The notes under the pieces were generated by a model, which was not told where the DNA came from, searched no databases, and saw only the letters and a list, made by a program, of their open reading frames with translations. From Falsiroseomonas ponticola (GTDB lineage Bacteria; Pseudomonadota; Alphaproteobacteria; Acetobacterales; Acetobacteraceae), in the NCBI RefSeq assembly GCF_016805305.1, contig NZ_JAERQN010000001.1:992001-1056000 (forward strand): DNA of 64,000 nt. Reading direction: 5' to 3'. The translations under genes were made by a program, and so were the position numbers. Shown here piece after piece: positions 4,101-42,867 of the stretch (within the stretch, counting starts at the first letter, position 1; each line of letters starts with the position of its first letter).

Positions 4101-4145
4101 AAGTGTTGGTCCACACACCATGTGCGGAACCGCCGGGAGAAAACG

Positions 4146-4209
4146 TCGAGGCAATGCCTTGACGTGTTACCCTTTGCTCCTTTGGTCCTCACAGGGGCGT
4201 GACGCCTGT
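4146..4209. other. Two further hairpins in the 3' region of the FAD oxidoreductase gene
   Basis: CGTCGAGGC / GCCTTGACG (4146-4166) forms a 9-bp stem with one G-T pair. CACAGG / CCTGTG (4189-4209), with inner GGCG/CGCC pairing, forms a second stem. Together with the terminator at 4069-4100 they make a roughly 140-nt structured minus-strand segment: either a long 3' UTR or a small RNA. Coordinates cover both stems. Confidence 0.4.
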
Positions 4210-4221
4210 GTGAAGGCTTGG

Positions 4222-27723: not shown

Positions 27724-28223
27724 GCGACCCGCGCATCATCCCCGTGGAGCCGGAGACGGCGACGGTGGAGGCCATCGCCCCCTTCGGCACGCTGGTCGAG
27801 GCGGGGGAGGACGGCACGCCCTTCGGCCCCGCCGATGCGCGGCTGGAACTCGGCCAGGGCACGCCGCGGCTCTACATCATGCGGCTGCACAAGCGGCCCA
27901 TGCTGGTCCGCGGCATCACGCGCCACACCCGCGTGACGCAATGCCTGGCGGCGACGATGGGCGGCGAATGGTTCATCGGCCTGGCGCCGGCGGGCGATCC
28001 GGACCTGCCGGGGGCGAAGCCCGACCCGGCGGCGATCCGCATCTTCCGCATCCCCGGCGACAAGGCGCTCGCGCTCCATCGCGGCACCTGGCACGCGGGG
28101 CCGTTCTTCGAGGCGGAGACGCAGGATTTCCTCAACCTCGAACTCTCCGACACGAATGAGGTGGACCACCACACCGTCCGCCTCGACGCCGAATTCGGCA
28201 TCGCCTTCGCGATCACGCCCTGA
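27720..28223 (+). CDS. AllA-like ureidoglycolate lyase family protein
   Basis: A 167-residue cupin-fold protein of the ureidoglycolate lyase (AllA) family, which splits ureidoglycolate to glyoxylate and urea at the end of purine/allantoin breakdown. The key segment I-T-R-H-T-R-V-T-Q-C-L-A-A-T-M-G-G (about 62-78) corresponds to the family's H-x-x-x-Q metal/substrate region, and H-R-G-T-W-H-A-G lies about 120. It is coupled to monooxygenase A (ATGA). Here it may act on a ureide made from another heterocycle; that role is inferred. Confidence 0.8.
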   Translation: MSDPRIIPVEPETATVEAIAPFGTLVEAGEDGTPFGPADARLELGQGTPRLYIMRLHKRPMLVRGITRHTRVTQCLAATMGGEWFIGLAPAGDPDLPGAKPDPAAIRIFRIPGDKALALHRGTWHAGPFFEAETQDFLNLELSDTNEVDHHTVRLDAEFGIAFAITP

Positions 28224-28236
28224 GGGAGCCCGGCGC

Positions 28237-29265
28237 ATGACCCGCCTGACCCGTCGTGCCTTGCTGGGGGCCGGTGCCGGCCTGCTGGCCGCGCCCGCGA
28301 TCGCGCAGCCGCGCGCGATCCGGCTGATGCTGGACTGGACGCCGCAGGGCTACCACGCCGCCTGGTTCCTGGCCGCCGAGCGCGGCCATTTCGCGCGCGA
28401 GGGGCTGAACGTCGCCATCCAGCGCGGCTTCGGGTCGGGAGACGTCGTCACAAAGGTGGCGGCGGGCGTGGCCGATATCGGCTTCGGCGATCCGGGCGCG
28501 GTGGTGAAGCACAATGCGGAGAATCCCGGCCGCGCCATCGTCAACGCCTTCCAGTATTTCGACCGCACCCTGGCCGGCGTGATCACGCTGGCGGGGCGGG
28601 GGATCGAGAAGCCGTCCGACCTGCGGGGCAAGCGCATCGCGGCGCCGGCGGGCGACAGTGGCCGCGTGCTGTTCCCGGCCTTCGCGCGGGCCAATGGCTT
28701 CCCCGCGGATTCCGTCACCTGGATCACCGTCGCGCCGCCGATCCGGGAGCCGATGCTGATGCGCGGCGAGGCCGATGCCATCACCGCCTTCGTCTCCGGC
28801 GCCATCTTCAACCTGCGGGCGCTGGGCGCGCGGGAGGCCGATATCCGCCGGTTCGGCTTCAACGCGCATGGCGTGGACATCTACGGCAATGCGCTGCTGC
28901 TGCCGGCGGAGCTGGCGCAGCGGGAGCCCGCGATGGTGCGGGGCTTCGTGCGCGGCACCATCGCCGGGCTGCGCGACGCGCTGAACGACCCCGCCGCGGC
29001 CATCGCCGCCGTGCAGGCGCGGGAGCCGCTGGCCGATGTGCCGCTGGAGACGGAGCGCATGCGCTTCATCATGCGGGAAGCGGTGCTGACGCCGACGGTC
29101 GCGCAGCACGGCGTCGGCCATGTCGATGCCGGGCGGGCGACGGCGATGGTCGCCGCCATGGCGGAAAGCTTCGGCGTGCCCAACCCGCCCGCGGCGGCCA
29201 GTTTCATGCTGACCGACTTCCTGCCGCCGGCGGCGGAGCGGATGCTGCCGGCCATGCGCGCGTGA
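28237..29265 (+). CDS. NMT1/THI5-like ABC solute-binding protein
   Basis: A 342-residue periplasmic binding protein with a signal peptide (M-T-R-L-T-R-R-A-L-L, ending A-I-A-Q near residue 24, Tat-like twin Arg). The start of the mature part, I-R-L-M-L-D-W-T-P-Q-G-Y-H-A, and the P-S-D-L-R-G-K-R-I-A domain hinge are typical of the NMT1 family, which binds pyrimidine-like (thiamine precursor), sulfonate or other aromatic N-compounds. GGAG precedes the ATG. No cognate SsuC-type permease is in the run, so it may feed the single HisM-type permease or one elsewhere. Confidence 0.85.
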   Translation: MTRLTRRALLGAGAGLLAAPAIAQPRAIRLMLDWTPQGYHAAWFLAAERGHFAREGLNVAIQRGFGSGDVVTKVAAGVADIGFGDPGAVVKHNAENPGRAIVNAFQYFDRTLAGVITLAGRGIEKPSDLRGKRIAAPAGDSGRVLFPAFARANGFPADSVTWITVAPPIREPMLMRGEADAITAFVSGAIFNLRALGAREADIRRFGFNAHGVDIYGNALLLPAELAQREPAMVRGFVRGTIAGLRDALNDPAAAIAAVQAREPLADVPLETERMRFIMREAVLTPTVAQHGVGHVDAGRATAMVAAMAESFGVPNPPAAASFMLTDFLPPAAERMLPAMRA

Positions 29266-30134
29266 TGCGCGACCACGGGCGCTATCCCTATTCCGCCATC
29301 GCGCGGCGCCCGGCCTGGGATTGGCCGGGCGGCAAGCGGCTCGCGGTCTTCATCGCCGTCAATCTGGAGGCGTTTCCCTTCGCGGAGGGGATGGGCATTC
29401 CGCTGGTCAATCCACTGCCCGAGCCCGATGTGCAGAACTACGGCTTCCGCGACTGGGGCAACCGCGTCGGCGTCTGGAACCTGCTCGACGCGCTGGATGA
29501 ATACGCGCTGCCCGCGGCGGCGCTGCTGAACACCGCGATCTACGACCTCTGCCCGCCCGTCGCCGAGGCCTTCCGCACGCGGGGCGACGAGGTGGTGGGC
29601 CATGGCCGCACCAATGCCGAGCGGCAATCCGACATGGATGAGGCGACGGAGCGCGCGATGATCGCGGAATGCCGCGCGCGCATCGCGCAGGAGGAAGGTG
29701 CGGTGCCCCGCGGCTGGATGGGCCCCTGGGTGGCGGAGACGCATGTCACGCCGGACCTGCTGGCGGAGGCGGGCTTCGACTACGTCATGGACTGGACGCA
29801 TGACGATCAGCCGACGCGGCTGGCGACGCGGGGCGGTGGATCACTGGTCACGGTCCCCTATTCGAAGCCGACCAACGACATTCCCGTGCTGCATGCGGCG
29901 AAGTGGCCACCCTCCGTCTGGGCGGATGCGCTGATCGACCAGTTCGAGGAACAGCGGCGGCTCTCGCAGAAATGGCCGCTGACCTTCAACCTGTCGCTGC
30001 ATCCCTTCCTGGTGGGGCATGCCTTCCGGCTGAAGCACCTCCGCCGCGTCTTCGCGCATATCGCGGCGGCTCGGGACGATGTCTGGCTCTGCCGGCCCGG
30101 CGACATCGCGCGTCATGCGGCGATGGTGCTGTAG
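29265..30134 (+). CDS. PuuE-like polysaccharide deacetylase family protein
   Basis: A 289-residue NodB-fold protein of the group that includes PuuE, the cofactor-free allantoinase of some bacteria. Family marks: Y-P-Y-S-A-I, N-T-A-I-Y-D-L, V-V-G-H-G-R-T-N-A-E-R-Q, and W-V-A-E-T-H-V-T-P-D-L-L-A-E-A-G-F-D-Y. The genes for this and the AllA-like enzyme lie within 1.1 kb, which favours ring opening of a hydantoin/allantoin-type intermediate. The ATG at 29265 shares its A with the preceding TGA; a GTG at 29262 is an alternative. Glycan deacetylation is less likely in this context. Confidence 0.8.
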   Translation: MRDHGRYPYSAIARRPAWDWPGGKRLAVFIAVNLEAFPFAEGMGIPLVNPLPEPDVQNYGFRDWGNRVGVWNLLDALDEYALPAAALLNTAIYDLCPPVAEAFRTRGDEVVGHGRTNAERQSDMDEATERAMIAECRARIAQEEGAVPRGWMGPWVAETHVTPDLLAEAGFDYVMDWTHDDQPTRLATRGGGSLVTVPYSKPTNDIPVLHAAKWPPSVWADALIDQFEEQRRLSQKWPLTFNLSLHPFLVGHAFRLKHLRRVFAHIAAARDDVWLCRPGDIARHAAMVL

Positions 30135-30137
30135 GGC

Positions 30138-30791
30138 ATGGATTTCGAATGGAGCCTCTTCGTCGAGAGCCTGCCCGCCTTGGCGCGCGGCGCGGCGACG
30201 ACGGCGGAGCTGGCCTTCGTCTCGATCTGCGGGGGCCTGGTGCTGGGGCTGATGGGCGGGCTCGCGCGCGTCTCCGGCATCATGCCGCTGAACGCCTTCG
30301 CGCTGGCCTGCGTGACCCTGCTGCGGGGCGTGCCGCTGCTGGTGACGATGCTGTTCTTCTACTACGGGCTGCCGTCGCTGGGATTGCTGCTGGAGGCGAA
30401 GACCGTCGCGATCCTGGCGCTGTCGCTGACCAATGGCGCCTATGTGACGGAGATCGTCCGCGCCGGCATCCAGTCCATCGATCGAGGGCAGATGCGCGCG
30501 GCGCGCTCGCTCGGCATGGGATGGGCGCTGGCGATGCGGCGGATCGTGCTGCCCCAGGCGCTGCGCCGCGTGCTGCCGCCGATCGGGAATGAGGCGATCA
30601 CGCTGCTGAAGAACACGGCGCTGGTCAGCGTCATCGCCATCCCGGACCTGCTGCGCGCGGGCACCGACATCATGACCTGGCAGGCCAATACCTTCAGCCC
30701 CTTCGCCGGCGTTGCGCTGATGTACCTGATGATGACCCTGCCGCTGGTCTGGCTGGTGGCGCGGCTGGAATCCCGATGGAGGGTCGCGTGA
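30138..30791 (+). CDS. Polar amino acid-type ABC permease (HisM/GlnP family)
   Basis: A 217-residue inner-membrane permease with about five hydrophobic segments. The coupling loop A-R-S-L-G-M-G-W-A-L-A-M-R-R-I-V-L-P-Q-A (about 123-142) is the EAA motif that docks the ATPase. It is the only ABC permease in the run, so the transporter is probably a homodimer. It pairs with the ATPase at 32032 and the solute-binding protein at 32817. Confidence 0.9.
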   Translation: MDFEWSLFVESLPALARGAATTAELAFVSICGGLVLGLMGGLARVSGIMPLNAFALACVTLLRGVPLLVTMLFFYYGLPSLGLLLEAKTVAILALSLTNGAYVTEIVRAGIQSIDRGQMRAARSLGMGWALAMRRIVLPQALRRVLPPIGNEAITLLKNTALVSVIAIPDLLRAGTDIMTWQANTFSPFAGVALMYLMMTLPLVWLVARLESRWRVA

Positions 30792-32035
30792 GCGCTCTGC
30801 TGTTCAAGGGCGCTACGCTGCTGCGCGGCGGCGATGACTGGGCGCCGGTGGCGGATGTGGACCTGCTGCTGCGCGACGGCGTGGTGGCCGAGGGGCCGGC
30901 GGAGGGCGCGGAGGTGGTGGAGGCCACGCATCTCCTGCTGCTGCCCGCCTTCGTCAACGCCCATACCCATTCGCCGGAGGCGCTGGCGCGGGGCCGCGCG
31001 CCGATGGCGCGGCTGGATGACTGGCTCGCCGTGGAATACGCGGATGGCCAGGATGCGCTGCCGGCTGCGCGCATCCGCCAGGCCATCCTGATCAGCTGCG
31101 CGGAGGCGATCCGCGGCGGCGCCGTGCAGGTCACCGACCATTTCCGCCAGATCCCGCCAAGCGTGGAGAGCGTGGCGGCCGCGGCCAGCGCCTGGGCGGA
31201 AGGCGGCATCCGCGCGCGCGTGGCCATGATGCTGCGCGACCTGCCCTCGCCGTCGGCCAGCTTCACGCCGCCGAGCACGGCGGAAGCATTGGCAGTGGCG
31301 GAGGCGCTGCTGCGCGACCCGCCGCCAGGGGCGTCGGTGGGGCTTGGCCCCTCCGCCCCGCAGCGGTGCAGCGATGATCTGCTGCGCGGCGTGGCGGCGC
31401 TGGCGGAGCGGCATGGCGCCTTCGTGCATCTCCATCTCTGCGAGACCGCGAAGGATGCGGTGGATTGCCGCGCGCGGGCGGGGGGCGATGATCCGGTGGC
31501 CTGGCTCGAAGGCCTCGGTCTGGCGGGCGCCCATGTGGAATACGCGCATTGCGTCCATCTCGTTGATGCGGAGCTGGATCGCATGGCGGCGCGGGGCACG
31601 ACCATGGTGCACAACCCGCTGGCGAACCTTCGCCTCGGCAGCGGCATCGCGCCGGTGGCGCGCGGGCTGGCGCGCGGCGTGCGGCTGCGCGTCGGCTCCG
31701 ACGGCCCCGGCAGCAACGACACGCAGGACATGCTGGAGGCCGCGAAATTCGCCATGCTGCTGCCGCGTGCAGGCCGCCCCGATGCGGAATGGCCGACGCC
31801 CGCGCAGACGCTCTCGATGGCGACGGGCGGGCACAGGCTGGTGCCGGGCGCGCGCGCCGACGTCATCGCCTTCGACCTCCGCGCCGCCGCCTTCGCCGGC
31901 GCGAAGCCCGACGAGATCGTGACGCGTCTGCTGCTGGCGGCGCGGCCACGCGACCTGCGGCATGTGCTGCGCGATGGGGACTTCCTGATGCGCGATGGCG
32001 CGTTGGTACCGTCGGCTTTGGCGGCGCTGCCATGA
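30788..32035 (+). CDS. Metal-dependent amidohydrolase A (TRZ/ATZ/cytosine deaminase-like)
   Basis: A 415-residue amidohydrolase-superfamily enzyme. Ligands are visible in F-V-N-A-H-T-H-S (HxH, about 55-62), [14 protein letters not shown] and the catalytic Asp in [10 protein letters not shown]. Such enzymes deaminate or dechlorinate triazines, pyrimidines, purines and pterins. GTG 30788 is chosen since GGAGGG precedes it and it overlaps the permease stop (GTGA); ATG 30776 is the alternative. With the second amidohydrolase at 37815 it suggests two hydrolytic deaminations in one pathway. Confidence 0.85.
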
Positions 32036-32802
32036 GCGTCATTGCCGTCCGCAACCTGCACAAATCCTATGGCGCGACGCTAGTGCTGCGCGGCGTGGAC
32101 CTGACGGTGGCGAAGGGCGAGACGGTCTGCGTCATCGGCCCCTCCGGCAGCGGGAAATCGACTCTGCTGCAATGCCTGAACGGGCTCGAGCCCTTCGAGA
32201 GCGGGGAGGTCGTCGTCGCAGGCCAGCATATCGGCTGGGGCAGCGGCGGGGCGCGCATTCCGGAGCGCCAGATGACGCTGGCGCGCCGGCGCATCGGCAT
32301 CGTCTTCCAGCAGTTCAACCTGTTTCCGCACATGACGGCGCTGGCCAATGTCATGGAGGCGCCGGTCCAGGTGCTGAAGCGGCCGCGCGCCGCGGTGGAG
32401 GCGGAGGCACGCGCGCTGCTGGCGCGGGTCGGGCTGGCACACAAGGCGGATGCCTATCCGGCCGACCTCTCCGGCGGGCAGCAGCAGCGCGTCGCCATCG
32501 CCCGCGCGTTGGCGATGCAGCCGGAGGTGATGCTGTTCGACGAGGTGACCTCCGCCCTCGATCCCGAACTGGTCGGGGAGGTGCTGGCGGTGATGCGCGG
32601 CCTGGCGGCGGAGGGCATGACCATGCTCGTCGTGACGCATGAGATGGGCTTCGCGCGGGAAGCGGCGGACCGCGTCATCTTCATGGATGGCGGGCTGGTC
32701 GTGGAACAGGGGCCACCTGCCGAAGTGCTGGGCCGTCCGCGGGAAGCGCGGACGCGGGAATTCCTGGGCCGCGTGCTGCGGCCCGAATCGATCGATGCAT
32801 GA
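32032..32802 (+). CDS. Polar amino acid-type ABC transporter ATPase (GlnQ/HisP-like)
   Basis: A 256-residue ABC ATPase. Walker A is [10 protein letters not shown] (about 37-46), the Q-loop F-Q-Q-F-N-L-F-P, the signature L-S-G-G-Q-Q-Q-R, Walker [13 protein letters not shown] and the switch His in V-V-T-H-E-M-G-F. The [13 protein letters not shown] block is specific to the polar amino acid uptake family, so it energises the permease at 30138. It is coupled to amidohydrolase A by an ATGA overlap. Confidence 0.93.
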
Positions 32803-32816
32803 GGGGGACTGGGACG

Positions 32817-33590
32817 ATGGACCGCATCCGGATCACGCGCCGCGCGCTGCTGGCGACGACGCTCGCGACACCGGCCCTGGCGCAGGAGGGTGACACGCTA
32901 GCCAAGGCGCGCGCCGCCGGCGTGCTGGTGGTCGGCAATGGCGGCGCCTTCCCGCCCTTCGAGTTCATGGAAAATGGGCGCCTCACGGGCTACGACGTCG
33001 ATCTGGGCGAGGAGCTGGGCCGGCGCATGGGGCTTCGCATCCAGTGGCAGGTGATCGCCTTCGCGGGGCTGATCGCGGGCCTCACCTCCGGCCGCGTGGA
33101 CTGCCTGATCACGGCCATGGCCTGGACGGCGGAGCGCGCGGAACGCATCGCCTTCTCCACCCCCTACTACAAGACCGGCATCGCCGCGGGCTATCGCCCG
33201 GGCCTCGCGATCGACCGGCCGGAAGACCTGGCGGGGCGCATCGTCGGCGTGCAGGTCGGCACCTCCGGCGAGCAGTTCGTGCGGCAGAACCACGCCAACA
33301 GCGTGAAGGAGATCCGCGTCTACAACGAATTTCCGCTGGCGCTGCAGGACCTCGTGGTCGGGCGGGTGGAGGCGGTGGTGAACACGCAGCCCGTGCTGCG
33401 CTGGAACATCGCACGCAATGCCCGCGTGCGGCTCGGCGTCTCGCCCGTCTGGGATGCGCGCGACGTCGGCATCAACACGCGGCACGCCGATACGGCGCTG
33501 ATGGCGGAGATCAACCGGCACCTGGCCGCGATGCAGGCGGATGGCTTCCTGCCGGGGCTGGACCAGAAGTGGTTCGGCCAGGCCTCGTGA
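32817..33590 (+). CDS. Family 3 ABC solute-binding protein
   Basis: A 257-residue periplasmic binding protein of the polar amino acid family, with a signal peptide (R-R-A-L-L-A-T-T-L-A-T-P-A-L-A). The mature N-terminus holds N-G-G-A-F-P-P-F-E-F and G-Y-D-V-D-L-G-E-E-L, and the ligand lobe L-I-T-A-M-A-W-T-A-E-R, all standard. It completes the importer with the ATPase 14 bp upstream and the permease. The pocket residues do not tell the ligand; the enzymes around suggest a nitrogenous heterocycle rather than a common amino acid. Confidence 0.9.
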   Translation: MDRIRITRRALLATTLATPALAQEGDTLAKARAAGVLVVGNGGAFPPFEFMENGRLTGYDVDLGEELGRRMGLRIQWQVIAFAGLIAGLTSGRVDCLITAMAWTAERAERIAFSTPYYKTGIAAGYRPGLAIDRPEDLAGRIVGVQVGTSGEQFVRQNHANSVKEIRVYNEFPLALQDLVVGRVEAVVNTQPVLRWNIARNARVRLGVSPVWDARDVGINTRHADTALMAEINRHLAAMQADGFLPGLDQKWFGQAS

Positions 33591-33674
33591 CATCTTCGCG
33601 CCCGCGGGCCGCCATGCTACAGCTTCGTCGCCCTGGTGAGCCGGAGAATCGGGCCTGGGCGACATCGTGTGGCG

Positions 33675-33692
33675 GCATCCCGCAGGGGATGC
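33675..33692 (+). other. Hairpin in the largest gap of the catabolic gene run
   Basis: GCATCCC (33675-33681) pairs with GGGATGC (33686-33692) inside the 141-bp gap between the importer genes and the second half of the run. This is the only sizeable break in an otherwise overlapping series, so the hairpin may attenuate or stabilise the transcript, or the gap may hold a second promoter. No clear promoter is seen. Confidence 0.35.
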
Positions 33693-33731
33693 GCGGCCGT
33701 GCCACCGTCGCCAGGAACTGATCCGCCACCC

Positions 33732-35195
33732 ATGGATGCGCTGCCCCTTCACCCCCTGATGCCGCTGCCGGATGCCGAGGCGCGACTCGCGGCGCTGGCG
33801 GATCGCGTGGCGTGGGAGCTGCAGACGCTGGCCTATCCCGCGCGGGACTGGGTGCAGCCGCGCGGCGATGGCGTGCGGGACGTGGTCGTGGTTGGTGGTG
33901 GGCAATGCGGGCTCGCGCTGTCCTTCGCGCTGCGGCGCGCGCGCGTCACGAACACCGAGGTGCTGGAGGCCGGAATGCCCGCCGGCATCTGGCTGCGCTT
34001 CGCCCGCATGCACACGCTGCGCACGCCGAAGCATGTGACCGGGCCGGAACTCGGCATGCCCTCGCTCTCCGTCCGCGCCTGGTTCGAGGCGCGGTATGGC
34101 GAGGCCGCCTGGGCGGCACTCACGAAAATCCCGCGCGGCGTCTGGCAGGCCTATCTCGACTGGCTGCAGGGCATGCTGGCGCTGCCGGTGGAGGCAGGCT
34201 GGCACGTCGATGCGGTGACGCCGGAGGCGGATGATTTGCTTGCCGTCACGGCGGAGCGCGACGATGGCGTGCGGATGCGCTGGCTGGCGCGGCATGTGGT
34301 GCTGGCGACGGGGGTAGATGGCGCGGGGGCCTGGCAGGCGCCGCCGATGGTCGCGCATTCGCTGCCGGCGGGTCGCTATGCCCATACGGCGGAGGCGATC
34401 GACTTCGCGCGGCTGGCGGGGAAGCGCGTGGCCGTGCTGGGCGCGGGGGCCTCGGCCTTCGACAATGCGGCGATGGCGCTGGAACATGGCGCTTCGCGAG
34501 TCGATCTGCTGGCGCGGCGGCCGCAACTGCCGGCGGTCAATCCCTATCGCTGGATGGAGTTTTCCGGGTTTCTGAACCACTTCGCGGACCTGCCGGATGC
34601 GCTGAAGTGGCGCTTCATGCGGACGATCTTCGCGATGAACCAGCCGCCGCCGCAGGAAACCTTTTCCCGGTGCGCGCTGCATGCGGGTTTTCACCTGCAC
34701 CTCGGCGCGCCGATTCGCGCGCTGCGAATGGAAGGCGAGGCGATCGTGGTGGAGACGCCGCGCGGCACCGTCACGGCGGATTTCCTCATCGTCGGCACGG
34801 GGCTGGTGGTGGAACCGGCGCTGCGGCCGGAACTCGCCGCCGCCGCGCCGCATCTCGCGCGGTGGCGGGACCGCTACGCGCCGCCGGCGGGCGAGGAGGA
34901 TGCCGCGCTCGGTGCGTTCCCCTACCTCACCGGCGATTTCGCCTTCACCGAGCGCGTCGCGGGCAGCGCGCCCTGGTTGGCGCGGCTTCGCAGTTCGTCC
35001 TTCGCCGCCATGGCGAGCACGGCCTCCTCCGGCGGCATCTCGACGCTGCGGCCGACCGTCGATCGCATCGCCCGCGGCATCACGCGCGACCTGTTCCTGG
35101 ACCAGGCGGAGGCGGACCGTGCCGCGCTGGTTGCCTATGACGAGCGTGAGTTGGTTGACCTGACCCTGGCATCGGAAGGGACACGCCCATGGTGA
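33732..35195 (+). CDS. FAD/NAD(P)-binding monooxygenase-like protein B
   Basis: A 487-residue paralogue of the protein at 26281. The FAD site is V-V-V-V-G-G-G-Q-C-G-L-A-L, the NAD(P) site R-V-A-V-L-G-A-G-A-S-A-F-D, and T-L-R-T-P-K-H-V-T-G-P-E parallels the same block in protein A. Paralogues in one gene run suggest two successive oxygenations or two related substrates. It ends with a 7-bp overlap into the HpaB-like gene, whose hydroxylation it may precede. The start at ATG 33732 gives an N-terminus aligning with protein A; a longer in-frame ORF begins at 33636. Confidence 0.8.
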   Translation: MDALPLHPLMPLPDAEARLAALADRVAWELQTLAYPARDWVQPRGDGVRDVVVVGGGQCGLALSFALRRARVTNTEVLEAGMPAGIWLRFARMHTLRTPKHVTGPELGMPSLSVRAWFEARYGEAAWAALTKIPRGVWQAYLDWLQGMLALPVEAGWHVDAVTPEADDLLAVTAERDDGVRMRWLARHVVLATGVDGAGAWQAPPMVAHSLPAGRYAHTAEAIDFARLAGKRVAVLGAGASAFDNAAMALEHGASRVDLLARRPQLPAVNPYRWMEFSGFLNHFADLPDALKWRFMRTIFAMNQPPPQETFSRCALHAGFHLHLGAPIRALRMEGEAIVVETPRGTVTADFLIVGTGLVVEPALRPELAAAAPHLARWRDRYAPPAGEEDAALGAFPYLTGDFAFTERVAGSAPWLARLRSSSFAAMASTASSGGISTLRPTVDRIARGITRDLFLDQAEADRAALVAYDERELVDLTLASEGTRPW

Positions 35196-36649
35196 AGGAC
35201 GGCGCCGCCCATCTGCGCAGCCTGCGTGACGCGCGCACCATCTTCATCGATGGCAGGCGCGTGGCGGATGTGACGACGGACCCGGCCTTCGCCGGCGCCG
35301 TCGCCTCCGCCGCCTCGCTCTATGACCTGCAGGCCGAGGATCCGGAGGGCATGACCTTCGACCTCGGCGATGGCACGCGCACGGGGCTCGCCTGGATGAT
35401 GCCGCGCAACCACGCGGAACTCGTGCAGCGCCGTGTCGCGATGGAGCGCATCGCGGCGCGCAGCTGCGGCATGATGGGCCGCAGCCCCGACCACGTCGCC
35501 TCCACCTTCGTGGGCTTCATGGCCGGCCGCCACGCCTATGAGGCGCGCGGTGGCGCGGCACTCGCTGCCTCTTTCGAGGAAGCACGGCGCGCCGACCACT
35601 GGATCGGCTACGTCATCATCAACCCGCAGGCCGACAAGTCGAAGCAGGCAAAGGACCAGCCGGGCGGCGATTTGGTGGCGCGGATCGTGGACGAGGATGC
35701 GGGCGGCATCACCATCCGCGGCGCCAAGATGCTGGCGACCGCCGGCGTGATGGCGAATGAGCTGATGGTGTCCGGCATCGTGGCGCTGATGCCTGGCGAC
35801 GAGCCCTATGCCTTCACCGCCGTCATGCCCATGGCGACCAGGGGCATCAAGCTGCTGTCGCGCCGCAGCTACGAGGCGGCGGCGAGTTCCGTCTTCGACT
35901 ACCCGCTCTCCGCCCGATTCGATGAGAATGATGCCGTCGTCTTCTTCGAGGATGTGAAGATCCCCTGGGACCGCGTCTTCGTCCATCGCGACCTCCGCAT
36001 GATGCAGGCGCAGTGGCATGAGACGCGGGCGCATGTGATGCAGAACTACCAGTGCATTGTGCGGCTTTCCGTCAAGCTGCGCTTCCTGCTGGGCCTGGCG
36101 CATCGCATCGCGGAGACGAACGGCATCCTCGGCTTCCCGCAGACGCGGGAGACGCTCGGCCTTCTCGCCGCCAAGGCCAGCAGCATCGAGGCGATGGTCA
36201 TTGCCATGGAAGCGCAGGGCGAGGATTTCCATGGTGTCTTCGTGCCGGATCGGCGGCTGCTGGTCTCGGCACAGGTGCTGGCGCAGACGATCTATCCGGA
36301 GTTCATCGAGGCGATCCGCGGCCTGTCGGGCGGCGGGCTCGTCATGGTGCCGTCCTCGGCGGCGGATTTCGACGGGGGGGAGGTGGAGCGCATCATCCAG
36401 GCCAGCCAGCGATCGCCCGTGGCAGGCAGCGAGGAACGGGTGAAGCTGATGAAGCTGGCCTGGGACGCGATCGGGTCCGAATTCGGGTCGCGACACCTGC
36501 AATACGAGATGTTCTACTCCGGTCCGCAATTCGCGATCCGCGGTAATTCCTACCGCTTCCACGATTGGACAGGACCGAAGGCCATGGTGCAGGGCTTCAT
36601 GGACAGCTACGGGCTCGATCGCCCGGATGCGAAGGCGGCGGCGGAATGA
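35189..36649 (+). CDS. HpaB-family (4-hydroxyphenylacetate 3-hydroxylase-like) flavin monooxygenase
   Basis: A 486-residue oxygenase component of the two-component FADH2-dependent aromatic hydroxylase family. Family segments: W-M-M-P-R-N-H-A-E-L, V-I-I-N-P-Q-A-D, I-R-G-A-K-M-L-A-T, V-F-F-E-D-V-K-I-P-W-D-R-V-F and the late H-L-Q-Y-E-M-F-Y-S-G. HpaB relatives hydroxylate phenols, pyrroles, pyridines or chlorophenols using reduced flavin from a separate reductase. No reductase gene is in this run; the RutF-like gene at 49188 is a candidate. It overlaps the amidase gene by 4 bp. Confidence 0.9.
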   Translation: MVKDGAAHLRSLRDARTIFIDGRRVADVTTDPAFAGAVASAASLYDLQAEDPEGMTFDLGDGTRTGLAWMMPRNHAELVQRRVAMERIAARSCGMMGRSPDHVASTFVGFMAGRHAYEARGGAALAASFEEARRADHWIGYVIINPQADKSKQAKDQPGGDLVARIVDEDAGGITIRGAKMLATAGVMANELMVSGIVALMPGDEPYAFTAVMPMATRGIKLLSRRSYEAAASSVFDYPLSARFDENDAVVFFEDVKIPWDRVFVHRDLRMMQAQWHETRAHVMQNYQCIVRLSVKLRFLLGLAHRIAETNGILGFPQTRETLGLLAAKASSIEAMVIAMEAQGEDFHGVFVPDRRLLVSAQVLAQTIYPEFIEAIRGLSGGGLVMVPSSAADFDGGEVERIIQASQRSPVAGSEERVKLMKLAWDAIGSEFGSRHLQYEMFYSGPQFAIRGNSYRFHDWTGPKAMVQGFMDSYGLDRPDAKAAAE

Positions 36650-37818
36650 CGCCGGACCAGATCAGGGCCTCCGCCTTCGTCGCGCATGGCGATGTGCGGG
36701 TGGAAGGCGCGGCCGAAGGCCTGCTCGCGGGCCTCACCTTCGCGGTGAAGGATCTGTTCGACGTGGCAGGCACCGTCAGCGGCTGGGGCAACCCGGACCG
36801 GGTGGAGCAGACGCCGCCTTCCGTCACCACGGCCAGCGCGCTGCTGCCGGCCCTCGCCGCCGGTGCCACGATGATCGGCAAGACGCATACGGATGAGATC
36901 GCCTGCGGCCTGTTCGGGGAGAACCCGCATTACGGCGCGCCGATCAACCCGGTGGTGCCGGACCGCGTGCCGGGCGGTTCCTCCTCCGGCTCCGTCGTCG
37001 CGGTGGCTGGTGGCTTCTGCGATTTCGCCTTCGGCACGGATACCGGCGGTTCCGTCCGCGTGCCGTCCAGCTTCTGCGGCGTCTTCGGCATCCGGACCTC
37101 CCACGGCCGCGTCTCCACCGCGGGGCTGATGCCGATGGCGCCGAGCATCGACACGGTGGGCTGGTTCGCGCGCGATGCGGGGCTGCTGCGCAAGGTGGGC
37201 TCGCTGTTCTTCAGTGACGCGCCTTCCGTAACGCCGCGGCTTCTCTTCGCGGAGGACGCCTTCGCCATTCCCGTGCCGCTGCTGCAGGATGTGATGCGCG
37301 ATGCGGCGGCGAAGCTCGGGCCGATGGAGAGCGTGCGGGCCTATGGCGCGTGGGGCCATTCCTACTGGCTGGAGACCTTCAAGCCGCTGCAGCTCGGCGA
37401 ACTCTGGGCCACGCATGGCAGCTGGGCGACGGCGCCGGGGCGGCGGCTGAGCCCGGCGGTGCGGGACCGCATCGCGCTGGCCTCCACCGTGCCGCAGGCG
37501 GATATCGCGGCGGCCTGGGTGCGGCGGGAGACGCTCTCGGAGCATATCCGCGCGCTGCTCGGCCATGACGGCATCCTGGTGATCCCGACGGCGCATGACC
37601 TGCCGCCGCTGCGCGATGCGCCGGTCTCCGCGCAATTCGCCTTCCGCGACAACACGCTGGCGCTGACCTGCATCGCGAGCCTCTGCCGCCTGCCGCAGGT
37701 GAATATCCCGGCCGGCACGCTGGATGGCATTCCCTTCGGCCTGTCGCTGGTCGCCGCGCCCTACCAGGACGCGATGCTGCTGGCGGCGGCGGAAGCGCTG
37801 GCGCCCGCGCTGGCGTGA
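36646..37818 (+). CDS. Amidase-signature family amidase
   Basis: A 390-residue amidase with the Ser-cisSer-Lys triad visible: K35 in F-A-V-K-D-L-F-D, the cis-Ser within G-G-S-S-S-G-S (112-116) and nucleophile S136 in G-T-D-T-G-G-S-V-R. It hydrolyses a carboxamide to acid and ammonia. The enzyme is shorter than GatA-like members, as in small catabolic amidases. It sits between the HpaB-like hydroxylase and amidohydrolase B, with 4-bp overlaps on both sides. Confidence 0.9.
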   Translation: MTPDQIRASAFVAHGDVRVEGAAEGLLAGLTFAVKDLFDVAGTVSGWGNPDRVEQTPPSVTTASALLPALAAGATMIGKTHTDEIACGLFGENPHYGAPINPVVPDRVPGGSSSGSVVAVAGGFCDFAFGTDTGGSVRVPSSFCGVFGIRTSHGRVSTAGLMPMAPSIDTVGWFARDAGLLRKVGSLFFSDAPSVTPRLLFAEDAFAIPVPLLQDVMRDAAAKLGPMESVRAYGAWGHSYWLETFKPLQLGELWATHGSWATAPGRRLSPAVRDRIALASTVPQADIAAAWVRRETLSEHIRALLGHDGILVIPTAHDLPPLRDAPVSAQFAFRDNTLALTCIASLCRLPQVNIPAGTLDGIPFGLSLVAAPYQDAMLLAAAEALAPALA

Positions 37819-39302
37819 CGGTGCTGCTGGTCACGGGCGGGCTGGTCTGGGACGGCGCCAGCGCGGCGCCGCGAGACCTGCTGCTGCGGGATGGCCGCAT
37901 CGCGGCGGTGCTGGCGCCGGGCGAGGGGCCGAAGGACGTCCCCCGCTTCGATGCCAGCGATCGGTTGGTGCTGCCGGGCCTGGTGAACGCGCATACCCAC
38001 GGGCACGCCACACTGATGAAAGGGGTGGCGGATCGGTGGATGCTGGAATCCTCGCTGACCAACGGCGCCTGGATGGGCGGGCGGCGGGATGCGGAGACCA
38101 TCCGGATTTCCACCCTGCTGGGCGCGGTGGAGATGCTCGAGGCCGGCTGCACCGCCTGCTACGACCTGTTCTTCGAATTCCCCGGCCCCAGCGCCGAGGG
38201 GCTGGCCACGGTCGCCGCGGCCTATGCGGAAGCGGGCATGCGGGCCGTGGTGGCGCCGATGGTGGCAGACCGCGCGCTGTTCGAGGTGCTGCCCGGCTTC
38301 CTCGACACGCTACCCGATGATCTGAGGGCGCAGGCCAGTGCCTTCCGCCTGGCGCCGGCCGCGCAGACCCTGGCCGCGCTGCGCGACGCCTTCGCCAGCG
38401 TCACGCCACCTTCTGGAATCAGCTTCGCGCTGGCGCCGACCATCCCGCATCACTGCACGGATGACTTCGTGACGGGGTGCCGGGACCTGGCGGCCTCGCG
38501 CGGCCTCCGGCTGCACATGCATATCGCGGAATCGAAGCTGCAGGCGCTGGTGGCGCGGAAGCTCTGGGGTATGGGTCCGGTGCACCACATCGCGCGCCTC
38601 GGGCTGCTGGGCCCGCATTTCACGGCGGCGCATGCAGTGTGGCTGGAAGCGGCGGAGCTGGACCTGCTCGCGGCGCATGGTGCCACCGTGGCGCATATGC
38701 CGGCGAGCAACATGCGGCTCGGCGCGGGTGTCGCTTCCGTCGCCGCGATGCGCGCGCGCGGCATCACGGTCGGGCTCGGCACGGATGGCTGCAATTCCGC
38801 CGACAGCCTGGACATGGCGGAGGCGATGCGACTGGCCTCGCACCTCTCCCGCATCCGCGACGTGCCGCGCGAGGAATGGCTGGCGGCGGCCGATGTGCTG
38901 CGCATGGCGACGGAGGGCGGCGCCGCGGTGCTGGGGATCGAGGGCGGGCGGATCGCGGAAGGCGCGCCGGCGGACCTCGCGCTGCTCGACCTCGGCCACC
39001 GCGCCTTCGTGCCGCTGCATGACGCGGCGAACCAGGCGGTGACCTGCAATACCGCTGGCAGTGTCAGGGAAGTTTTCGTCGGTGGCCGGCAGGTGGTGGC
39101 GGAGGGGCGCTGCCTCGCCCCCGTCGCCGCGACGCTGCGTGACCGCGCGCGCGATGCGCTGGCGGAGTTGATGGAGCGGCTTGCACCGTCGCGCGCCCTG
39201 GCCGCGCGGCTGGAGCCGCATGTCGTCGCCTATGCCGAGCGGGAGGGCCGCGCCGCGCTGCCCTTCGCGCGCAAGATCCCCGTGGAGAGCAGCCTCGCAT
39301 GA
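37815..39302 (+). CDS. Metal-dependent amidohydrolase B (TRZ/ATZ/guanine deaminase-like)
   Basis: A 495-residue amidohydrolase. Metal and catalytic residues appear in V-N-A-H-T-H-G-H (about 56-63), M-H-I-A-E, A-A-H-A-V-W-L and L-G-T-D-G-C-N-S-A-D. The build resembles 8-oxoguanine/guanine/S-adenosylhomocysteine deaminases and triazine hydrolases. It is about 80 residues longer than amidohydrolase A, mainly at the C-terminus, so the two are not recent duplicates. GTG 37815 overlaps the amidase stop (GTGA). Confidence 0.85.
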   Translation: MTVLLVTGGLVWDGASAAPRDLLLRDGRIAAVLAPGEGPKDVPRFDASDRLVLPGLVNAHTHGHATLMKGVADRWMLESSLTNGAWMGGRRDAETIRISTLLGAVEMLEAGCTACYDLFFEFPGPSAEGLATVAAAYAEAGMRAVVAPMVADRALFEVLPGFLDTLPDDLRAQASAFRLAPAAQTLAALRDAFASVTPPSGISFALAPTIPHHCTDDFVTGCRDLAASRGLRLHMHIAESKLQALVARKLWGMGPVHHIARLGLLGPHFTAAHAVWLEAAELDLLAAHGATVAHMPASNMRLGAGVASVAAMRARGITVGLGTDGCNSADSLDMAEAMRLASHLSRIRDVPREEWLAAADVLRMATEGGAAVLGIEGGRIAEGAPADLALLDLGHRAFVPLHDAANQAVTCNTAGSVREVFVGGRQVVAEGRCLAPVAATLRDRARDALAELMERLAPSRALAARLEPHVVAYAEREGRAALPFARKIPVESSLA

Positions 39303-40282
39303 CTTCGCCGCTTCGCCTGACCATCGGCGTGTCCGATTGCGACCGCGCCCGCGCGCTGGCGGAAGGCCGCGTGCCGATCGCCGGCGTCGCGGCGGAGACG
39401 ACCGTCATGGCGCTGCAGCCGCTGTTCAACCTGCAGATGACGACCCATAAATTCGATTGCTGCGAATTCCCCATCGCCACCTGGCTGCGGCATTTCGATC
39501 GGCCGCGGCAGGACTATGTCGGCATTCCCGTCTTCCCCTCCCGCCATTTCCGCTTCTCCTGCGTCTATGTGAACAAGGCGAAGGGGCTGACGAAGCCGGC
39601 TGATCTCGCGGGGAAGCGGGTTGGCGCGATGGTGTGGGACATGGCGGCGGCGGTCTGGCTGCGCGGCATCTTCGCGGAGTATTACGACCTTCCCGTCGCC
39701 GCGCCGATCTACGTGAATGCCGGGCTGAACGCGGCCCGCGCCGGGGAGGATCATCCGCAGGACTATCCGCCCGGCGTCACCATCGAGCATGTCACGGACA
39801 AGTCGCTGTCGGAGATGCTGGAGAGCGGCGAGATCGACGCGATCTATACCGCCCGCGCGCCTGGCAGCTTCTTCAGCGCGCCGGACAAGGTCGGGCGGCT
39901 CTTCGCCGATCCGATGGCCGCCGAGATCGACTACTTCCAGCGGTCCCGCATCTTCCCGCCCATGCATCTGGTGGCGGTGAAGACGGCGATTGCGGAGGCG
40001 AATCCCTGGCTGCCGCGGGCGCTCCATGACGCCTTCGCGGAATCGCAGCGCCAGTCCCGGCTCCGGCTGCATGACAGCGCGACGCTCGCCTTCGGCCTGC
40101 CCTTCCTGGTCCAGCACCTCGAGGAGACGGAGCGCGTGCTGGGCGCGGATTTCTGGTCCAGCGGCTTCGCCGCCAACCGGCACGTCTTCGCGACCCTCAT
40201 CCGCTACATGCGCGACGAGGGGCTGCTGAAGCGCGACCTGGCGCCGGAAGAGCTGTTCCCCGCTTCGCTGCTGGAGACCTGA
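39299..40282 (+). CDS. Pht5-like (4,5-dihydroxyphthalate decarboxylase / binding-protein fold) protein
   Basis: A 327-residue protein without signal peptide. It has the periplasmic-binding-protein fold pattern found in 4,5-dihydroxyphthalate decarboxylase Pht5 and relatives: D-C-D-R-A-R-A-L near the start, F-D-C-C-E-F near residue 53, I-P-V-F-P-S-R-H-F-R and L-A-G-K-R-V-G-A-M-V-W-D. The absence of a signal peptide favours a cytosolic enzyme over a transport protein, so decarboxylation of an aromatic acid made by the HpaB step is plausible (inference). Coupled to amidohydrolase B by ATGA. Confidence 0.75.
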   Translation: MTSPLRLTIGVSDCDRARALAEGRVPIAGVAAETTVMALQPLFNLQMTTHKFDCCEFPIATWLRHFDRPRQDYVGIPVFPSRHFRFSCVYVNKAKGLTKPADLAGKRVGAMVWDMAAAVWLRGIFAEYYDLPVAAPIYVNAGLNAARAGEDHPQDYPPGVTIEHVTDKSLSEMLESGEIDAIYTARAPGSFFSAPDKVGRLFADPMAAEIDYFQRSRIFPPMHLVAVKTAIAEANPWLPRALHDAFAESQRQSRLRLHDSATLAFGLPFLVQHLEETERVLGADFWSSGFAANRHVFATLIRYMRDEGLLKRDLAPEELFPASLLET

Positions 40283-40285
40283 GCG

Positions 40286-41296
40286 ATGGTCACCACCGAT
40301 GACCGCGACACGCGCGTGCGCGAATCCGCGCAGAAGTTCCGCGCGCCCTTCACGCTGGATCCCTCGCTGGCGCTCTACTGCCCGCAGGACAATGTGGACA
40401 GCCTTGCGCATCCCCGCATCAAGGCCTGGTTCGACTTCGTCGGCCGGGACTACACCCCCGTGCTGCCGGAGGTGCCGCATCGCGTGCTGCTGCTGCTGCC
40501 GTGCACACGCACAAAGCCCTATATCCTCTCCACCGAGCACAAGCGCATCAATGCCGCGCTGATCGCGGCCGGCTTCGTGCCGATGGCGCCGGCCGATCCC
40601 ACGCTGCTGGGACTGCGGGCGGAAGGGGAGCCCGAGGCGCTGTTCAGCCTGGCGCCGCTGTTGCATCCCGATGGCATCGTCATCCATCGCGCCGTGATCA
40701 GCGAGCCGCTGGGCCTGGTGCCCTATGAGCACATGCTGGCCTATCCCGGCGGGACCTCGCCGGCCGTGCTCTATGACGATCCCGGCCTGTTCGAGGAGCG
40801 GGGCAACGCGGTCTCCCCCTGGCGGGCGGACCACACGGCCACGCGCGTCAGTGCCACGCGGTGGAAGTGGGGACCGGCCGAGAAGCGCGCCTATGTCGTC
40901 ATGCACAACGAGATGGCGCGGGTGGTGGCGGAGGCGCTGGGGCGCTTCGGCGGTGTCTATACGCGGCGCATCAGCTGGGTGGCGCCGGGGCTCACGCATC
41001 GCAGCTTCGTCGTGGCGAAGGGGGAGCGCGCCGCCCATGGCATCGTCGCGCAGCGCCAGGTGGGGGCGGAGCGGCTTCCGCTGGTGGGCGCCAATGACCT
41101 GCTGCCGGAGGGGTTGCGCCTGACCGCGCTGCCGACGCGGGAGCAGTGCCAGGATGCGCTGGTGCGCCTGGCGGCGCGGCTCGGCAGGACGACCACGGAG
41201 GCTGCTGGCCATTTCGGCCGCGGCGGCGGCGACGCCACGCCGTTGGCCCTTCCCGAGTTGCTGGAAGACCTCTTGGCCGCAATCCGCGCCCATTGA
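40286..41296 (+). CDS. DUF5591/ArcS-motif protein (P-C-x3-K-P-Y-x2-S-x2-H)
   Basis: A 336-residue protein, last of the run. Residues 72-85 read P72-C73-T-R-T-K77-P78-Y79-I-L-S82-T-E-H85, an exact match to the P-C-x3-K-P-Y-x2-S-x2-H motif I recall as characteristic of archaeosine synthase ArcS (within the DUF5591 region), which joins lysine to the nitrile of preQ0 in tRNA. The rest of ArcS (TGT-like and PUA domains) is absent and no tRNA-binding domain is seen. Position in a catabolic run makes tRNA modification unlikely; a reaction on a small nitrile, amidine or deazapurine-like molecule is conceivable but unproven. GGAG lies 9 nt before the ATG. Confidence 0.65.
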   Translation: MVTTDDRDTRVRESAQKFRAPFTLDPSLALYCPQDNVDSLAHPRIKAWFDFVGRDYTPVLPEVPHRVLLLLPCTRTKPYILSTEHKRINAALIAAGFVPMAPADPTLLGLRAEGEPEALFSLAPLLHPDGIVIHRAVISEPLGLVPYEHMLAYPGGTSPAVLYDDPGLFEERGNAVSPWRADHTATRVSATRWKWGPAEKRAYVVMHNEMARVVAEALGRFGGVYTRRISWVAPGLTHRSFVVAKGERAAHGIVAQRQVGAERLPLVGANDLLPEGLRLTALPTREQCQDALVRLAARLGRTTTEAAGHFGRGGGDATPLALPELLEDLLAAIRAH

Positions 41297-41303
41297 CGGA
41301 GGT

Positions 41304-41349
41304 GCAGGAGGCCGCTGCCTCCTGCCGGGGTCCAGGGGCAGAGCCCCAG
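41304..41349. terminator. Two hairpins between the catabolic run and dnaA
   Basis: GCAGGAGGC (41304-41312) pairs perfectly with GCCTCCTGC (41317-41325). CCAGGGGC (41332-41339) pairs with GCCCCAGG (41342/3-41349) apart from one A-A mismatch. They separate the ends of the convergent ArcS-motif gene and dnaA. The second is related to the GGTCCAGGG hairpin at 2663. Confidence 0.55.
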
Positions 41350-41358
41350 GGTTGGCCT

Positions 41359-42867
41359 TTACGTCTCCAGCATCCGCCGCAGCAGTTCCACGTCTTCCGC
41401 GAAGGCGCTGTCCGCCTGCATCAGCTCCGCCACCCGGCTGACCGCGTGCATCACGGTCGTGTGATCACGGCCGCCGAAGCGCCGCCCGATCTCCGGCAGG
41501 GACCGGCTGGTCAGCTGCTTGGCCAGGTACATCGCCACCTGGCGGGGCCGGGCCACGTTGCGGGCGCGGCGGGGCGAGGACATGTCGGTCAGGCGGATGT
41601 TGTAGTGTTCCGCCACGCGCTTCTGGATCTCCTCGATCGTCACGCGGCGGTCATGGGCGCGGAGGATGTCGTGCAGCACCTCCTGCGCGCCTTCCAGCGT
41701 GACGGGCCGGCCGAAGAGGTTGGCGTGGGCGATCAGCCGGTTCAGCGCGCCCTCCAGCTCCCGCACGTTGGAGGTGATCTTGTGGGCGAGGAATTCCATC
41801 ACCTTGGGCGGCACCGGCACGCCCTGGCTCTGCGCCTTGGCCTGCAGGATGGAGATGCGGAGTTCGTAGGTGGTGGCGTGCAGGTCGGCGACCATGCCGC
41901 AGCCGAGGCGCGTGCGCAGCCGGTCCTCGATGCCCGAGAGGTCGGAGGGCGACTTGTCCGCGCTCACGATGATCTGCTTGCCGGCATCGACAAGTGCGTT
42001 GAAGGTATGGAAGAACTCTTCCTGCGTATTGTCCTTGCCGATCAGGAACTGCAGGTCGTCGATCAGCAGCACGTCCACGCTGCGCAGGCTTTCCTTGAAT
42101 TCCATCGTGGACTGGGACCGCAGCGCCGCGATGAAGCGGTACATGAATTTCTCGGCCGACATATAGGCGACGGAGAGCGGCGGGCGGCCCTCGGCGGCGC
42201 CGCTTTCCCGGATGGCCCAGGCGGCGGCGTGCATCAGGTGGGTCTTGCCCAGTCCGACGCCGCCATAGAGGAACAGCGGGTTGAAGCCCGGGCTGGCCGG
42301 CTTTTCCGCCACGCGGCGGGCGCAGGCATAGGCGAATTCGTTGGGCTTGCCGACGACGAAGGTATCGAAGGTGAAGCGCGGGTCGAGCGGCGCGGTCCAG
42401 TCGCTGCGCGGGTCCGCGGGACGGGCTTCCGCGGCGGGGGCGCTGCGCCCGAGCGGCTCCGCCAGGCCGGCCGGCGCCTCGGCCGCTTCCGGCGCGCGCA
42501 GGGGCGCGGGGCGGGGCGCCTGGCGGGGCGGGTCGGCCGCCACCGGGGCGGCGGCGGGCGCGGGCTCCGTCGCCCGGGGTTCGGGCGTCACGCGGAAATC
42601 GATGCGCCGGATGGCGGGGATCTCGGCCTGCCAGAGGGCGCGCAGGCGGTCGCCGTAATGGCCGCGGACCCAGTCCCGCAGGAAACGGGTCGGGAGAAGA
42701 ACGATCGCCTCCTCCCCCTGGATGGCGGAGAGGGTCATCTGGCGGAGCCAGGTGCGGTACTCGACCTCGCCCACTTCCTCGCGCAGCCGGCCGCGGATGC
42801 GCGCCCATACCTCCGCCAGCTGGGCCGGGGGGGAGGACGGAGACGACGGACCGACCGCATTCTCCAT
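41359..42867 (-). CDS. dnaA: Chromosomal replication initiator DnaA
   Basis: A 502-residue DnaA, the AAA+ protein that opens the replication origin. Domain I is at about 15-90, followed by a Pro/Ala-rich linker. The AAA+ core has Walker A Y-G-G-V-G-L-G-K-T-H and Walker B V-L-L-I-D-D, with R-E-L-E-G-A-L-N-R near its end. Domain IV carries the DnaA-box signature G-G-R-D-H-T-T-V-M-H-A-V. ATG 42867 is annotated; an in-frame GTG at 42876 has GAGG 7 nt upstream and is an equally good start. It lies downstream of rpsT on the same strand, as usual in this phylum. Confidence 0.98.
   Translation of the reverse strand: MENAVGPSSPSSPPAQLAEVWARIRGRLREEVGEVEYRTWLRQMTLSAIQGEEAIVLLPTRFLRDWVRGHYGDRLRALWQAEIPAIRRIDFRVTPEPRATEPAPAAAPVAADPPRQAPRPAPLRAPEAAEAPAGLAEPLGRSAPAAEARPADPRSDWTAPLDPRFTFDTFVVGKPNEFAYACARRVAEKPASPGFNPLFLYGGVGLGKTHLMHAAAWAIRESGAAEGRPPLSVAYMSAEKFMYRFIAALRSQSTMEFKESLRSVDVLLIDDLQFLIGKDNTQEEFFHTFNALVDAGKQIIVSADKSPSDLSGIEDRLRTRLGCGMVADLHATTYELRISILQAKAQSQGVPVPPKVMEFLAHKITSNVRELEGALNRLIAHANLFGRPVTLEGAQEVLHDILRAHDRRVTIEEIQKRVAEHYNIRLTDMSSPRRARNVARPRQVAMYLAKQLTSRSLPEIGRRFGGRDHTTVMHAVSRVAELMQADSAFAEDVELLRRMLET

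Follow-up and report, generated by a model that had tools for sequence, protein, structure and literature searches.

A stand-alone ArcS-type (DUF5591) core protein in a catabolic-looking gene run of Falsiroseomonas ponticola

Introduction

The core of archaeosine synthase (ArcS) is known to take part in the modification of tRNA in archaea and of DNA in viruses. ArcS is, to our knowledge, the characterised enzyme of the DUF5591 family, and we take PC-x3-KPY-x2-S-x2-H to be the motif that marks it. Archaeal ArcS is a multi-domain tRNA enzyme complexed with RaSEA, and the enzyme of T. kodakarensis adds lysine to the preQ0 nucleotide; the nucleoside is used slowly, a 5'-phosphate is needed for efficiency and the free preQ0 base is not used (PMC11298593). 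In QueF and QueF-L, a cysteine captures the nitrile of preQ0 as a thioimide, which gives a band at 376 nm (PMC5485725). For Vibrio phage nt-1, Hutinet et al. 2019 describe an encoded ArcS together with dPreQ0, dG+ and dADG in the phage DNA, and suggest that the ArcS of some phages may convert the nitrile to an amide by hydrolysis (PMC6884629).

Here, we describe a 336-residue DUF5591 protein of Falsiroseomonas ponticola. A stand-alone core is in itself no novelty, as phage nt-1 and the Sulfolobus STSV viruses each have one. The nt-1 protein, ORF388 (R9TEI9), is the best structural match to the 336-residue protein and, because it is the sole DUF5591 match in the nt-1 record, is presumably the ArcS mentioned by Hutinet et al. 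2019 (PMC6884629); it differs in its length of 226 residues and its degenerate motif (LCTTTRPYENSRKW) and, unlike the Falsiroseomonas gene, it sits between 6-pyruvoyl-tetrahydropterin-synthase-like and GTP cyclohydrolase genes. The proteins of STSV1, STSV2 and STSV4 (STSV1 ORF19) are likewise single-domain, with the exact motif and a second stretch, SEPxxxVPxE, but they are only 185-190 residues long, lack the two insertions and the C-terminal extension of the bacterial protein and are flanked by viral ORFs, mostly hypothetical. Archaeal ArcS and AF0587 (PDB 2q07) share the core motif with the 336-residue protein, whereas the multi-domain architecture of archaeal ArcS contrasts with a single-domain bacterial protein encoded in a catabolic-looking operon. 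Lastly, homologues or members of purine catabolism clusters (PuuE/UraD/allantoicase) and of 8-oxoguanine deaminase adjoin the DUF5591 gene in several lineages; we know of no DUF5591 protein in the described purine-catabolism pathways.

Results

Gene run and motif

The window is the whole stretch of 64,000 nucleotides that was analysed (positions 992,001 to 1,056,000 of contig NZ_JAERQN010000001.1). The source assembly has 99.3% completeness and 6.83% contamination, and the gene set recurs across the genus. Twelve plus-strand genes form a run between 28156 and 41296, with the DUF5591 gene in last place (Table 1). The junctions of the run are overlaps or 3-base gaps, apart from the one before the FAD-dependent oxidoreductase (FADox), where the gap extends from 33590 to 33732, or to 33636 with a longer start. 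Downstream of the run lies dnaA, on the opposite strand at 41359, and a terminator and promoter scan of 41200-41500 returned nothing. The run had been described as one of importer, hydroxylase, amidase and deaminase genes, and importer parts, an HpaB-type monooxygenase, an amidase and amidohydrolases were indeed identified; the Pht5-like gene ends at 40282, which agrees with the predicted start of the DUF5591 gene three bases further on.

Table 1. Coordinates of the gene run and of the motif within the window.
Feature	Position	Strand	Remarks
NMT1/THI5-type solute-binding protein	28156..29265	+	Pfam NMT1 9.4e-34
Polysaccharide-deacetylase-fold hydrolase, distantly PuuE-allantoinase-like	29262..30134	+	NCBIfam PuuE 88 bits, cut-off 424.6 missed
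ABC permease	30138..30791	+	Pfam BPD_transp_1
Amidohydrolase AmHyd1	30776..32035	+	Pfam Amidohydro_1 1.5e-37
ABC transporter ATPase	32032..32802	+	Pfam ABC_tran 1.2e-34; ATG at 32032
Family-3 periplasmic solute-binding protein	32799..33590	+	Pfam SBP_bac_3 1.1e-33
FAD-dependent oxidoreductase (FADox)	33732..35195	+	Pfam Pyr_redox_3 / Lys_Orn_oxgnase
HpaB-type two-component flavin monooxygenase, oxygenase component	35189..36649	+	Pfam HpaB_N, HpaB
Amidase-signature amidase	36646..37818	+	Pfam Amidase 1.7e-55; NCBIfam PRK08310 432, cut-off 391
Amidohydrolase AmHyd2, TRZ/ATZ / 8-oxoguanine-deaminase-like superfamily	37815..39302	+	Pfam Amidohydro_1
Pht5-like decarboxylase-family protein, 327 aa	39299..40282	+	PDB 9jp7 E 4.8e-55
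Stand-alone DUF5591 / ArcS-core protein	40286..41296	+	336 aa, ATG start; motif = residues 72-85
Motif codons P72-C-T-R-T-K-P-Y-I-L-S-T-E-H85	40499..40540	+	From translation

The NMT1/THI5-type protein matched the formylaminopyrimidine-binding protein 3ix1 in the PDB (E 1.9e-11) and its best NCBIfam model was the SsuA family, at 52 bits against a cut-off of 163.5, and for the family-3 binding protein the closest NCBIfam models describe amino-acid binders, below cut-off (cystine, 155 vs 312). The PDB matches of the HpaB-type protein are HpaB and chlorophenol monooxygenases, and it misses the NCBIfam HpaB equivalogs (280.7 vs 480.2). Both amidohydrolases miss the NCBIfam 8-oxoguanine-deaminase cut-off of 532 bits, AmHyd2 scoring 235 and the other 172. 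The Pht5-like protein has a sole PDB match up to an E-value of 0.1, namely 9jp7, a 4,5-dihydroxyphthalate decarboxylase, and a reading of this product as a substrate-binding protein was rejected, given that decarboxylase match and a Pfam NMT1 score below cut-off.

Residues 72-85 of the 336-residue protein read PCTRTKPYILSTEH and, as had been predicted, match the motif at every fixed position. Within the window the motif is unique among six-frame ORFs of at least 30 residues (80,689 residues), and a rough estimate, with amino-acid frequencies taken from the automatically called window genes, puts its chance rate at ~1e-11 per position and ~2e-5 per proteome; a chance match was rejected on this expectation. 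None of the seven fixed positions varies in the family alignments of 15 and 19 rows, and beyond the motif C288 and H42, H134, H207 and H238 are invariant in the family alignment as well. The dN/dS values of 0.08-0.13 against three close genus relatives and 0.24-0.31 against three further ones indicate that the gene is under purifying selection. The motif is also carried by the archaeal TGT+DUF5591 proteins that we fetched (three haloarchaeal) and by the STSV proteins, and the string 'PCX3KPY' was not found in a limited literature search.

Two other features of the window were noted. An antisense ORF of 687 residues (39230-41293, minus strand) overlies the Pht5-like and DUF5591 genes, and a naive GC3-based caller preferred it to them; it is unsupported as a gene, the plus frame being stop-free in 11/11 genus matches, and is probably a high-GC artefact. 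A plus-strand gene (22394-23644), which is not part of the DUF5591 run and lies some 17 kb away from the DUF5591 gene, encodes a radical-SAM and helix-hairpin-helix protein that scores 561.7 bits with TIGR03916 (rSAM_link_UDG; cut-off 343.5).

Homology and fold

The search against ArcS and DUF5591 that had been proposed was carried out with profiles and with structures. Pfam PF17884 (DUF5591) matched the 336-residue protein with 30.9 bits against a gathering cut-off of 26, the match being confined to residues 62-92. Comparison by hhalign of a profile of 15 family members with seven archaeal and viral DUF5591 cores (three STSV, three haloarchaeal and phage nt-1) gave a probability of 96% and an E-value of 4.5e-9 over 125 columns (residues 36-234), the archaeal references being plasmid and virus records and three of the seven being near-identical STSV proteins. 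The last ~100 residues lie outside both the Pfam and the hhalign matches, which counts against our preferred reading (see below). In a joint alignment of four bacterial family members with six other sequences, archaeal and viral, C73, P78, Y79, S82, P146, P159, Y163 and E247 are identical in all ten, and P72, K77, H85, S139 and V145 are kept in all except phage nt-1. The bacterial family and the STSV proteins also have a second stretch in common, SEP...VPxE...YD, so the DUF5591 match goes beyond the motif alone.

Two AlphaFold models (pLDDT 85.8 and 87.5) were compared with the PDB by Foldseek and, for both, the first match was 2q07 (AF0587), the sequence of which carries the ArcS motif, with probabilities of 0.99 and 0.97; the next-best probability was at most 0.18 among the best 50 of 128 and the best 50 of 78 matches. 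The other values for 2q07 are modest (E 0.02-0.03, TMq 0.29-0.32) and count against the preferred reading. We take AF0587 to have a uracil-DNA-glycosylase-like fold, and no UDG enzyme was present among the same best 50 of 128 and best 50 of 78 matches. In the viral library the phage nt-1 protein R9TEI9 was the sole match below 1e-3 (probability 1.00, TMq 0.42, TMt 0.60), its low TMq likewise counting against the preferred reading. Taken together, the curated profile, the profile-profile comparison and the fold search identify the 336-residue protein as a genuine ArcS-type (DUF5591) core.

Among the haloarchaeal plasmids, three TGT-annotated proteins with DUF5591 were noted (L042 1582-3546 and 4260-6177; L045 1465-3468), two of them neighbours in Haladaptatus, and the TGT domain was Pfam-checked in one of the three. 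Their genes adjoin AAA-domain or DEAD/DEAH-helicase genes, and these loci are possibly DNA-modification or defence islands rather than sources of tRNA enzymes; a search of the Haladaptatus DUF5591 protein against viral contigs gave no relative.

Gene neighbourhoods

We compared 20 distinct loci, with flanks of varying length: 11 from Falsiroseomonas, five from the Bradyrhizobium group, one from Rhizobium and three from another order. FADox, HpaB-type, amidase and Pht5-like genes adjoin the DUF5591 gene in 17 of the 20, window included, and a relative of AmHyd2 with at least 50% identity is present in 11. The three loci of the other order (L020, L021 and L041, the last a 6-kb contig) are those without the FADox/HpaB/amidase/Pht5-like set. 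It had been asked whether homologues always sit with HpaB, amidase and amidohydrolase genes; HpaB and amidase do recur in 17/20 loci and an AmHyd2 relative of at least 50% identity in 11/20, so the association is common but, in view of L020, L021 and L041, not universal.

Purine-type neighbours were scored in 17 loci, leaving out L012-L014, for which the reference set was one without Bradyrhizobium and Rhizobium proteins. A Bradyrhizobium-type PuuE-like protein with at least 55% identity is found in nine of these, and an 8-oxoguanine-deaminase homologue in six (Bradyrhizobium group and Rhizobium). Two of the latter homologues, from L015 and L019, were scored and reached 620 and 618 bits against the cut-off of 532. 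Among functionally named PDB entries, PuuE allantoinase is the best match (E 1.8e-81) to the Bradyrhizobium PuuE-like protein, and the one such protein that was scored misses the cut-off of 424.6 with 325 bits, which counts against the preferred reading. The Rhizobium locus (L019) also has Pfam matches to a flavin reductase and, on the opposite strand, an L-asparaginase; HpaB requires a partner of the flavin reductase type. Inside the same Rhizobium gene set, a plus-strand gene (10741-11469) encodes a member of the arylmalonate decarboxylase / Asp-Glu racemase group, with a EutA score of 103 bits that misses the cut-off of 318.

In L020 the neighbours comprise allantoicase, ureidoglycolate lyase, hydroxyisourate hydrolase, PuuE, OHCU decarboxylase, xanthine permease and AtzD, each above cut-off. 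The AtzD-type cyanuric acid amidohydrolase (4133-5365, minus strand; 547.6 bits, cut-off 360) lies within this purine-catabolism cluster. XDH-type genes are near the DUF5591 gene in L020, and in L041 the gene faces an adjoining XDH-type molybdenum hydroxylase set; the large subunits, which were scanned (the smaller ones being judged by eye), miss the xanthine dehydrogenase cut-offs in both loci, with CO-dehydrogenase-type models best, and 'XDH-type' is therefore a superfamily statement only. L021 has a CDA-type deaminase upstream of the DUF5591 gene.

Distribution

The bacterial DUF5591 family is rare and patchy. Orthologues occur in 11 of 59 relatives, all 11 within the 15 Falsiroseomonas genomes, and in three of 24 genomes in the order of G332, which is another order. 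The PF17884 profile is matched in three of 385 genomes of the class, source genome included. Five of 242 genomes carry an orthologue in the genus of the Bradyrhizobium sp. ARR65 genome (the Bradyrhizobium group) and, in a phylum sample of 398, the source genome alone does so, both by PF17884 and by the family alignment; the search of the 242 and the family-alignment search of the 398 scored at most 8 or 5 initial candidates from each genome, and misses are therefore possible in these counts. One plasmid record, of Rhizobium sp. ACO-34A, has an orthologue. In the family tree two deep groups separate Falsiroseomonas from the rest, at ~55% identity.

A genome-wide search for FADox in Falsiroseomonas and the Bradyrhizobium group gave a match of at least 62% identity in exactly the 11/11 DUF5591-positive genomes of the former and in 0/4 negatives (best 47%), and of at least 76% in exactly the 5/5 carriers of the latter and in 0/237 non-carriers (best 51%). 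Since the genes are linked, this tracking reflects inheritance as a unit and not an independent association. One Falsiroseomonas genome has a FADox match with one in-frame TGA (G007:C123:85218-86651), which may be due to decay, sequencing error or match run-over. FADox paralogues were considered as a clue to the substrate and set aside, as the contexts of the four paralogue loci that were fetched are unrelated. Two of the paralogues, from Bradyrhizobium-group genomes, adjoin a gene for ~2,155 residues (L072 2339-10490; L073 2785-10932, minus strand), NRPS-like by appearance only.

Discussion

Our preferred reading is that the protein is an ArcS-core enzyme with Cys73 as nucleophile that carries out one step in the catabolism of an imported purine-like N-heterocycle, and we give it a probability of about 0.5. 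The original prediction, reuse of the ArcS core in small-molecule metabolism, stands as regards the DUF5591 core and its place in a catabolic-looking operon that is kept in Falsiroseomonas, the Bradyrhizobium group and a Rhizobium plasmid, and an ArcS-type fold has probably been reused for catabolism in an alphaproteobacterium. The purine-type neighbours in the other lineages mean that the context points to catabolism of a purine-type heterocycle, and it is from them that we infer the substrate class, a purine-like N-heterocycle. The nitrile chemistry of QueF-type enzymes and ArcS itself suggest, by analogy, that Cys73 is probably the nucleophile. The cytosolic enzyme would act within the oxidative and hydrolytic breakdown of the imported heterocycle, Cys73 attacking an electrophilic carbon of the base or of a side group to give a covalent, thioimidate-like adduct that water or an amine would resolve, with K77, S82 and H85 assisting; the product would then be processed by the amidase, the HpaB-type monooxygenase, the FAD oxidoreductase, the Pht5-like decarboxylase and the amidohydrolases. 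Counting against this reading, both window amidohydrolases fall short of the 8-oxoguanine-deaminase cut-off, the window deacetylase resembles PuuE only distantly (88 vs 424.6), the family-3 binding protein is closer to amino-acid binders than to purine importers, the XDH-type proteins of L020 and L041 miss the xanthine dehydrogenase cut-offs, ArcS of T. kodakarensis does not use the free preQ0 base (PMC11298593), and the PDB relatives of HpaB and Pht5 are mostly named for phenolic substrates; because of these phenolics, the pathway could be one for a non-purine aromatic amide.

Other explanations have to be weighed against the catabolic one. The exact motif and the DUF5591 domain would also be expected of a bona fide ArcS that makes tRNA archaeosine in a bacterium, but the protein misses the NCBIfam ArcS equivalogs (29.4 vs 440 and 25 vs 600 bits); a Pfam scan with E-values up to 1 shows DUF5591 alone and neither a TGT nor a PUA domain, as the original prediction had it; a search of the genome with TIGR01210, which we take to be the RaSEA model, gave no match; the TGT of the genome, at 75.7 bits, is far below the archaeal TGT cut-off of 350; and the gene context argues in the same direction. 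The protein is thus not ArcS proper, and a tRNA-archaeosine role is extremely improbable. It is also improbable, if less so, that the gene came to its neighbours by chance linkage or joint transfer and that the role of its product is unrelated to theirs: a rare and patchy family would fit this, as would the order of G332, where HpaB, amidase, FADox or Pht5-like genes are present in 0/3 loci, whereas the linkage is kept at ~55% protein identity between the Falsiroseomonas and the Bradyrhizobium-group/Rhizobium loci, and purine-type neighbours recur in the other order. A more serious alternative, though still an unlikely one, is that the DUF5591 fold serves a different reaction, such as ring hydrolysis, a lyase step or cleavage of an N-glycosidic bond, with ordinary intermediates of purine metabolism or a synthetic N-heterocycle as substrate, and that the conserved Cys and His residues may bind a metal or shape the pocket. 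The purine and cyanuric-acid-type genes of L020, the 8-oxoguanine deaminase of L015 and L019 and the invariant C288, H42, H134, H207 and H238 are all compatible with this, but the motif is exactly that of the archaeal cores fetched, which favours related chemistry.

The preferred reading also has a narrower form, which we regard as rather unlikely, in which the operon degrades a 7-deazaguanine (preQ0 or a relative). The DUF5591 enzyme would turn the nitrile into an amide or amidine, the amidase would yield the acid, HpaB would hydroxylate the pyrrole ring, the Pht5-like enzyme would decarboxylate, and ring opening would fall to the deaminase and the PuuE-like hydrolases. A 7-deazaguanine substrate is in this sense coherent, but unproven. 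The action of ArcS on preQ0 nucleotides (PMC11298593) is consistent with it, as are the amide dADG, dG+ and dPreQ0 in the DNA of phage nt-1, owner of the best structural match (PMC6884629), and an amidase and a Pht5-like decarboxylase that adjoin the gene in 17/20 loci. Against it, ArcS does not use the free base (PMC11298593), and neither a nucleosidase nor a kinase was noticed in the gene run; the family-3 binding protein resembles amino-acid binders; in the identified genes we noticed no transporter for 7-deazaguanines, transporter profiles not being part of the search; and Rfam, at the gathering threshold over 10 sources, gave no preQ1 riboswitch and a single match, a tRNA in L021. A limited literature search of open-licence papers, by titles and the starts of abstracts, found no catabolic pathway for queuine or 7-deazapurines, and for queuine lyase or salvage a limited search found salvage work and a review. 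That a dedicated bacterial 7-deazaguanine pathway exists, in which the stand-alone ArcS core is a nitrile-to-amide/amidine enzyme on a small-molecule 7-deazapurine, we consider unlikely.

The bacterial catabolic setting of the DUF5591 core appears to be new; the term 'DUF5591' was not found in a literature search that had most subscription journals outside its reach. The presence of the ArcS core in conserved bacterial gene sets for heterocycle catabolism is a concrete and testable lead to a new enzymatic activity. We know of no dedicated catabolic route for queuosine-family bases, and a 7-deazaguanine pathway, if true, would be the first; it would also give the ArcS core a metabolic role beyond the modification of nucleic acids, and such a substrate would raise the issue of environmental recycling of these modified bases.
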